Part shown: positions 12,932-31,961 of the stretch, in pieces
Layout of the letters: every line of letters begins with the position of its first letter
How positions within the stretch are numbered: position 1 is the stretch's first letter
Assembly (NCBI RefSeq): GCF_024298825.1
Contig: NZ_CP101153.1
Coordinates: 124,001-188,000 of the forward strand
Source of the DNA: Haloglomus salinum
GTDB lineage: Archaea; Halobacteriota; Halobacteria; Halobacteriales; Haloarculaceae
Direction: 5' to 3'
DNA length: 64,000 nucleotides
Program-made: the position numbers and the translations under genes
Notes under the pieces: generated by a model
Told to the model about the DNA's origin: nothing
What the model saw: only the letters and a program-made list of their open reading frames with translations
The model's database searches: none

Positions 12932-13077
12932 CGGAGACGCTACCGAAGCCCTCGGGCGCTCGGGGCGCCGGGACTCGCTGCGCGCTTCCCTCGCGGCTCG
13001 CAGAGCTCGCCGCTCGGTCGGGTGCTTGCGTCGTCCGGGCACCACCGAGCGCCCTCGCCCTTCGGGAGTCCGCCAGG
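12932..13077 (-). repeat. GC-rich repeat type 2, copy 1
   Basis: Read on the minus strand the unit begins GGCGGACTCCCGAAGGGCGA and ends CCGAGGGCTTCGGTAGCG. It aligns in order with the plus-strand copy at 13458-13624, with shared blocks GAAGGGCGAGG, GCAAGCACC, GTCCCGGC and GAGGGCTTCGG. Confidence 0.6.
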
Positions 13078-13145
13078 GTTCGGGGGGCAACCGGAGCATT
13101 CGCGCGTGGAGGTTCCATTGGGGCGCAGAGTCCCCACACCTCCCC

Positions 13146-13212
13146 GCGCGGGCGCCGGAGTGTTCCGGCACGCTCGCTTCGCTCGCGGCCTCCACGGAAA
13201 GGGCGCCCGCGC
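13146..13212. repeat. 11-bp inverted repeat bounding a 45-bp loop
   Basis: GCGCGGGCGCC at 13146-13156 is the exact reverse complement of GGCGCCCGCGC at 13202-13212. It lies between repeat units and could form a strong stem. Confidence 0.6.
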
Positions 13213-13261
13213 GCTTCCTGTCCGTGGAACCGGCCGGTCGACCCGTCGCTCGGCTAGTGCG

Positions 13262-13457
13262 TGCCAGCCCCGTCAGTCCAACCGGCGCGCGCTGGCACCC
13301 GGCGGCCGGCTCACCGCGGGCGACCTCGTGTCGCCCGCTCACCTGCCGGCCGCCGGAAGCCCCTGTGCGCGCGAGGGCTGAAGCGCGCAGCGCAGCGAGC
13401 ACTGCAAGCGGCTGGGGAGGCACGAGGCCCACGGTCCCGACTGACCCACACGCGGTC
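13262..13457 (-). repeat. GC-rich repeat type 1, copy 1
   Basis: On the minus strand it runs from GTGTGGGTCAGTCGGG through CCTCCCCAGCCGCTTGCAGT and CTGCGCGCTTCAGCCCTCGC to CCGGTTGGACTGACGGGG. The same blocks occur in the same order in the unit at 31450-31632, 18 kb away. Its two ends carry complementary GTCAGTC and GACTGAC. Confidence 0.75.
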
Positions 13458-13624
13458 CTGGTGGACTCGAAGGGCGAGGCCGCTCGTCGTGGCCCGGGCC
13501 CGGCAAGCACCGCAGCGAGCGGAGCGAGCGAGGAGCGCAGCCGTCGCCGCAGGCGACGCGACCCGAGCGGAGCGGAGGGAGCGGGTCCCGGCCGCACGAG
13601 CGGCCGAGGGCTTCGGAGCCGTTC
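13458..13624 (+). repeat. GC-rich repeat type 2, copy 2
   Basis: Starts CTGGTGGACTCGAAGGGCGA and ends CGAGGGCTTCGGAGCCG. It is the inverted partner of 12932-13077 and directly abuts the type 1 unit, so the two point away from each other. Confidence 0.6.
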
Positions 13625-31244: not shown

Positions 31245-31410
31245 GTCGCAGACAGAGGGAATTCGGACCTTTTATCGATTATTATCTGATTATTTCTGTC
31301 ATATCCGCAATATCTCTGGGAGAACCGTTGACCTCTCGCGGCCGCAGGGAACGGGGACGCAGGCTCACGAACGACGACCCACGGACACCACTCCCCGGAA
31401 ACCGACCTGA

Positions 31411-31775
31411 TGTGACCACGGCAGCGCCGGCACGGCGCTGCCGACGTAGCCGTGTTGGTCAGTCGGGCTCGTGAGCCTCACACCTCCCCAGCCGCCTGCA
31501 GTGCTCGCTGGCGCTGCGCGCTTCGGCCCTCGCGCGCTTAGAGCCGGCAGCCCCGCCACCTGTGCGAGCGAGCTGAACTCGCTCGCGGGCTCCGGGGCTG
31601 CCGCCAGCGCGCACCGGGTGGACTGACGGGGACGCGCGCCCCCGATAATCCACGGGCCGGGAGCGCGTGGTGAGCGCGAGCGAACCCGCGCGACGCGGGG
31701 AAGGGCAGGGCTGCCCGAGCCGCCACGGACCACGGGGAGCCGTCGCCAGCGCCCGCGGGCGCTGGCGTGGTCACA
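31411..31775. repeat. 365-bp element with perfect 10-bp terminal inverted repeats
   Basis: TGTGACCACG (31411-31420) is the exact reverse complement of CGTGGTCACA (31766-31775). Directly inside the left end is a perfect 11-bp hairpin, CGGCAGCGCCG-gca-CGGCGCTGCCG (31419-31443). Just inside the right end is a 24-bp perfect palindrome (31744-31767) containing GCGCCCGCGGGCGC. The middle holds the type 1 repeat. No target-site duplication is obvious, and there is no ORF of quality. Confidence 0.7.
31450..31632 (+). repeat. GC-rich repeat type 1, copy 2
   Basis: It runs GTGTTGGTCAGTCGGG, CCTCCCCAGCCGCCTGCAGT, GCTGCGCGCTTCGGCCCTCG, CCGGGTGGACTGACGGGG. The order and spacing match the copy at 13262-13457 (minus), so these two intergenic regions are homologous. 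Confidence 0.75.
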
Positions 31776-31961
31776 GCAGGCCGGCTGTCGTGGCCGGTGC
31801 TGTGCGGCGATATGGTTCACTACTGAATGACGCGAGACACCCCGCATCAGGTCGGCTTCGTCGTCGCAGGGGTGACGCGAGAGCGCGAGGATATGGGCGA
31901 AAGTCCCGTCACAACAGCGCGAGAACCCCACCGAAAAATCAGAACCGTCCGAACGCGGCCG

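Follow-up and report, generated by a model that had tools for sequence, protein, structure and literature searches.

The intergenic region between the convergent genes for NADP-isocitrate dehydrogenase (icd) and a metal-dependent hydrolase in Haloglomus salinum holds a short, GC-rich stretch with inverted ends. The question it raises is what this stretch is: a non-autonomous transposable element or a structured RNA, the two readings offered by a preliminary description made from the sequence alone. The window is the whole stretch of DNA analysed (64,000 nucleotides, contig NZ_CP101153.1, positions 124,001 to 188,000), and positions are counted within it. The location between two genes was confirmed, and the 10-bp terminal inverted repeats (TGTGACCACG at 31411-31420 and CGTGGTCACA at 31766-31775), the 11-bp hairpin, the 24-bp palindrome and the mid-element repeat all lie where they had been placed. 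The limits, given as 31411-31775, require revision, as the inverted ends run further out and the true symmetric unit spans 31402-31784 (383 bp), with 19-bp ends paired at 17 of 19 positions. The element was said to be without a credible ORF; a Pfam search of its ORFs returned no match, and no coding potential was found. Its parts, and a second family member in the window, are:

31402-31784, minus strand (the better-folding strand): whole element, forming an almost unbroken imperfect inverted repeat
31402-31420, plus strand: left end CCGACCTGATGTGACCACG, 17 of 19 positions pairing with the right end; exact CGACCTGnTGTGACCAC found only at element copies (94 genomes)
31766-31784, minus strand: right end, the left end in inverted copy
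31419-31443, unstranded: left terminal hairpin, stem of 11 bp, loop GCA
31744-31767, unstranded: right terminal hairpin, a perfect palindrome of 24 bp
31454-31716, minus strand: conserved core of ~263 nt, whose minus-strand consensus structure is supported by covariation
31646-31716, minus strand: core module C, the most frequent part, with at least 40 matches in its own genome
31545-31603, unstranded: variable apical hairpin of the core (11-bp inverted pair 31545-31555/31593-31603)
12945-13614, unstranded: second family member in the window, a related core between two inverted terminal hairpins of the type U (see below)

The 10-bp ends do not bear the weight that the preliminary description gave them. 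Perfect 10-bp inverted pairs 300-400 bp apart number 26 in the window versus ~30 in dinucleotide shuffles, and the ends are therefore no evidence in themselves. Hairpins of 11 bp number two in the window versus 0.3 in shuffles, and the 24-bp palindrome is the sole one in the window, with none in shuffles. Folding of the whole element against shuffles gave z scores of -5.0 on the plus strand and -10.1 on the minus strand. Stronger evidence for an element than these hairpin and fold statistics is the recurrence of its architecture elsewhere.

Used as a query, the element finds at least 52 matching pieces in its own genome (G000), mostly in separate places, and has matches in 25 of the 59 relatives searched as well as beyond the family. 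Alignment of the copies demonstrated that their common part is the core (31454-31716), while the outer parts differ. The core recurs at least ~40 times in G000, where model R2, which represents core module C, also found at least 40 (copy numbers in this genome are lower bounds), and pieces of it occur in other haloarchaeal families. The element is thus no singleton, as it had first appeared, and is complete at one further site. With zero mismatches allowed, exact CGACCTGnTGTGACCAC occurs in the 94 genomes only at the window element (G000:155403), its orthologue in G002, G000:486170 and G001:2068963. The copy at G000:486170, between radB and a CBS gene, has the whole architecture with both ends, and the 24-bp palindrome sequence of the window element also lies within the left end of this copy (G000:486178). 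It adjoins about eight 35-bp tandem repeats (G000:485900-486170), and the array and the element end share GATTGCCGACC. The copy at G001:2068963 is a shortened one, in which the left end is kept with its hairpin, the core is partial and the right end truncated. Absence of the boundaries from all other copies had been named as refuting the preliminary description; the element is complete at one of these two sites and shortened at the other, whereas most of the ~40 core copies bear another terminal unit. The ends of the window element, CCGACCTGnTGTGACCAC plus the perfect hairpin, are a genus-restricted unit. Identity among copies is ~73-83% (73% to the other complete copy), which indicates that most movement is old.

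Comparison with sister species demonstrated that presence of the element varies. The icd/hydrolase gap is ~92 bp without the element in G003, which belongs to the same genus, and is filled in G001 by ~1.1 kb of unrelated DNA. In G002 this site retains the left end and core, 91% identical, but has a full U as its right end; two different terminal units thus occur on one core at one orthologous site. The radB/CBS gap consists of 6 bp without the element in G001 and G003 and of an unrelated insert in G002, versus ~755 bp in G000, where it includes the element and the 35-bp tandem array. At the third site, that of the G001 copy, the other three species are without the element, but the neighbouring gene differs too, and the comparison falls short of a clean empty site. 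Where related copies occupy orthologous positions elsewhere, those of G000 and G002 are strongly remodelled relative to each other, and cores have been shortened or exchanged. Both copies and element-free sites, which the preliminary description had suggested looking for, were therefore found among haloarchaea. The extra DNA at radB and icd exceeds the element, so that both sites could also have arisen by ectopic recombination or by the transfer of a longer segment. The isocitrate dehydrogenase gene of G003 lies in two frames on contig C27, possibly an assembly error.

A target duplication in the flanks, also proposed earlier as a check, was seen at none of three sites, at which window-type junctions are not at base resolution. 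This result bears on the reading of the element as a MITE of an ordinary DDE transposon, moved through its inverted ends by a transposase encoded elsewhere. MITEs are short, non-coding, foldable, intergenic sequences with inverted ends (reviewed in PMC10969869) and are reported in Haloquadratum and Halobacterium. The window element is likewise short, multicopy, intergenic and without a transposase gene, and has terminal inverted repeats, but it is GC-rich rather than AT-rich, and a zero-mismatch search of 94 genomes located its exact ends at element copies alone. Because the ends are confined to element copies, the sampled genomes hold no full-length transposon bearing exactly these ends, and together with the target-site result this makes an ordinary MITE an improbable account.

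The unit that most core copies carry, inverted on either side of the core and in place of the ends seen in the window element, is designated U. Its ~118 nt form an outer stem and an apical hairpin, the latter closed as a rule by C-GNA-G, along with conserved internal loops. Of 97 haloarchaeal genomes, 70 have matches to U, most of them belonging to the same order, and the corresponding model (R1) found at least 103 units in G000 among 150 candidates scored. Neighbouring U units almost always face away from each other, with a spacer of ~72 bp or 270-470 bp. The shorter spacing characterizes a separate U-72 bp-U family (G000:707899 and 1385284) with inverted U units and asymmetric ends GTGCGTRRKTAC ... 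CCAACTACGTCCCCT. Two copies are 94% identical over 469 bp in unrelated flanks, from which we conclude that elements made of these units do move. A 48-bp tandem repeat adjoining one family copy contains CCACCTACGAAGCCCTC, which is the outer edge of a U unit. An attC-like reading of U was dropped, as U ends are unlike attC.

Covariation was scored for both structured parts. Across an alignment of 37 U units, 96.4% of cells are paired, and 180 cells carry double changes, versus 51.8 (sd 7.0) in shuffled and at most 25 in slid controls. The 11 core sequences yield a minus-strand consensus of 64 pairs, 15 of them with double changes, and 31 double-change cells, versus 10.1 (sd 2.5) shuffled and at most 7 slid. 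Relatedness among the sequences is lost in the shuffles, and the slid control is biased towards a structure that comes from the very alignment being scored; given these limits, the U covariation is the stronger result. At 31500-31522 the core has both conserved loop strands of U in much the same form, GAGGAGCGCAGCG and GCAAGCACCGCAG, but with their order exchanged, which gives the impression of a single internal-loop motif used three times in each element.

Strand was assessed with pairs that were chosen with G-U disallowed and that the consensus structures of the two strands share. G-U outnumbers A-C on one strand by 19:3 in U (13 and 3 columns) and by 9:4 in the core, where the bias is not significant on its own. 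The wobble bias favours one strand, whether as RNA or as single-stranded DNA. An earlier tally from self-alignments of whole rods gave 14:18 and no strand bias, so that the conclusion on strand, which appears only in the per-unit alignments, depends on the alignment. The rod tally is what would be expected of a palindrome whose symmetry is maintained solely by template switching or gene conversion between its arms, and which has neither function nor mobility. This explanation is nevertheless highly improbable, as the two U arms within an element differ from one another although each still pairs within itself, and as internal loops are conserved, U shows wobble bias and copies occupy differing genomic positions.

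The same structures could instead point primarily to a family of structured non-coding RNA genes, putatively transcribed from the minus strand, spread passively by duplication or recombination and kept for the role of the RNA. The conserved multi-helix core with its compensatory changes, the conserved U-G pairs of the core on the minus strand and the better folding of that strand are consistent with this reading, as is the context of U on plasmids. Among 12 haloarchaeal plasmid matches read, nine have a U hairpin in intergenic DNA upstream of a gene for an OB-fold protein; these genes are orthologous, come from three haloarchaeal families and encode a putative DNA-binding product of ~290 aa (48-97% identical to the first). 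This fixed context suggests that U may act in cis in those plasmids. An RNA gene as the primary identity is nonetheless doubtful: presence differs between sister species, the copies have no consistent gene orientation, and the two U arms of an element point opposite ways, so one transcript cannot hold both in folding orientation. The preliminary description had found no named relative, and this stood, as searches of Pfam and of Rfam 15 (at the gathering threshold and a relaxed E-value) gave no match. The element therefore shares a covariation-supported secondary structure in core and U with structured RNAs, but belongs to no described RNA family in Rfam 15. A role as a terminator between convergent genes was rejected, since copies show no such preference (22 tandem, 12 divergent and 10 convergent locations, from a rough ORF-based context).

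The arrangement of U also recalls the REP and BIME sequences of bacteria, intergenic palindromes that form inverted pairs around linkers and number more than 100 per genome. U shares all of these properties, but its units are ~118 nt long with conserved internal loops, and no link to a Y1/RAYT gene was found. A REP/BIME- or PATE-like element would be moved as a single strand by an IS200/IS605-type Y1 transposase, for which the inverted hairpin pairs around linkers, the usual C-GNA-G apical loop of U and the PATE-like asymmetric ends of the U-72 bp-U family all argue. Loops of the C-GNA-G type are very stable in DNA. The route is still very unlikely, as 11 Y1 loci show no similarity to the ends and G037 has at least 34 U units and no Y1 gene. 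No transposase with matching ends was found among the Y1 loci, which were the basis of comparison. PATEs have palindromes near their ends, are too short for a transposase, lack inverted ends and are related to IS605-type transposons (Dyall-Smith et al., 2011; PMC3119063). The window element has such palindromes and is likewise too short for a transposase, and the U-72 bp-U family resembles PATEs; the window element differs in its 19-bp inverted ends and in that no Y1 link was detected.

Transposase-free MITEs, PATEs and small mobile repeats (SMRs) are all known from Haloquadratum (Dyall-Smith et al., 2011; PMC3119063). The inverted ends of SMR-A and SMR-B of Haloquadratum walsbyi are not related to transposons, target duplications are absent, and how these repeats are mobilised is not known; they are 80-110 bp long, commonly more than 95% alike among copies of one type, and insert into other mobile elements (PMC3119063). 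The window element is likewise haloarchaeal and transposase-free, with inverted ends for which the 94 genomes yielded no transposon partner and with no target duplication seen. Its family differs in reaching 383 bp, in copies ~73-83% alike, in the structured core and in exchangeable ends, and on account of size and copy similarity we do not file it as an SMR. On the best reading, the small mobile repeats of Haloquadratum are the known elements whose behaviour it most resembles, without its being one of them. Among plasmids the window element has no match, and matches were obtained for U arms only; the related element has no match in phage records, and scanning viral contigs for a motif yielded 15 exact matches.

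We conclude that the element is probably a non-autonomous, transposase-free, structured and modular mobile repeat of haloarchaea. It recurs at different sites, its presence differs between sister species, core and U covary, and differing ends sit on one core. Both earlier readings, the transposable element and the structured RNA, thus have support, the former from recurrence at non-orthologous sites and the latter from covariation in the core, and they are not mutually exclusive; the best account of the folded parts is that they are parts of a mobile repeat under constraint. The ~263-nt core would fold as a single strand between inverted terminal hairpin units, of which it takes two kinds, the genus-specific short CCGACCTGnTGTGACCAC with its hairpin or the widespread U. 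An enzyme acting in trans may recognise the ends as folded hairpins and copy or move the element into intergenic DNA, and arms may be swapped by recombination between copies at the conserved core. It is conceivable, if rather unlikely, that the family represents a haloarchaea-wide mobile class in which a conserved single-strand fold (RNA or single-stranded DNA) would serve both mobility and a host role, with interchangeable terminal hairpins and a new enzyme, an archaeal counterpart of SINE-like or REP-like repeats.

Such hairpin repeats yield spurious small ORFs in annotation. Many haloarchaea carry tens to more than 100 copies of these hairpins between genes, for which Rfam and the literature, searched also with the literal U sequences, provided no description or name. 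With a consensus, covariance models and sites of presence and absence in hand, it becomes testable what moves transposase-free haloarchaeal repeats, and whether the hairpin repeats of haloarchaea are RNAs.
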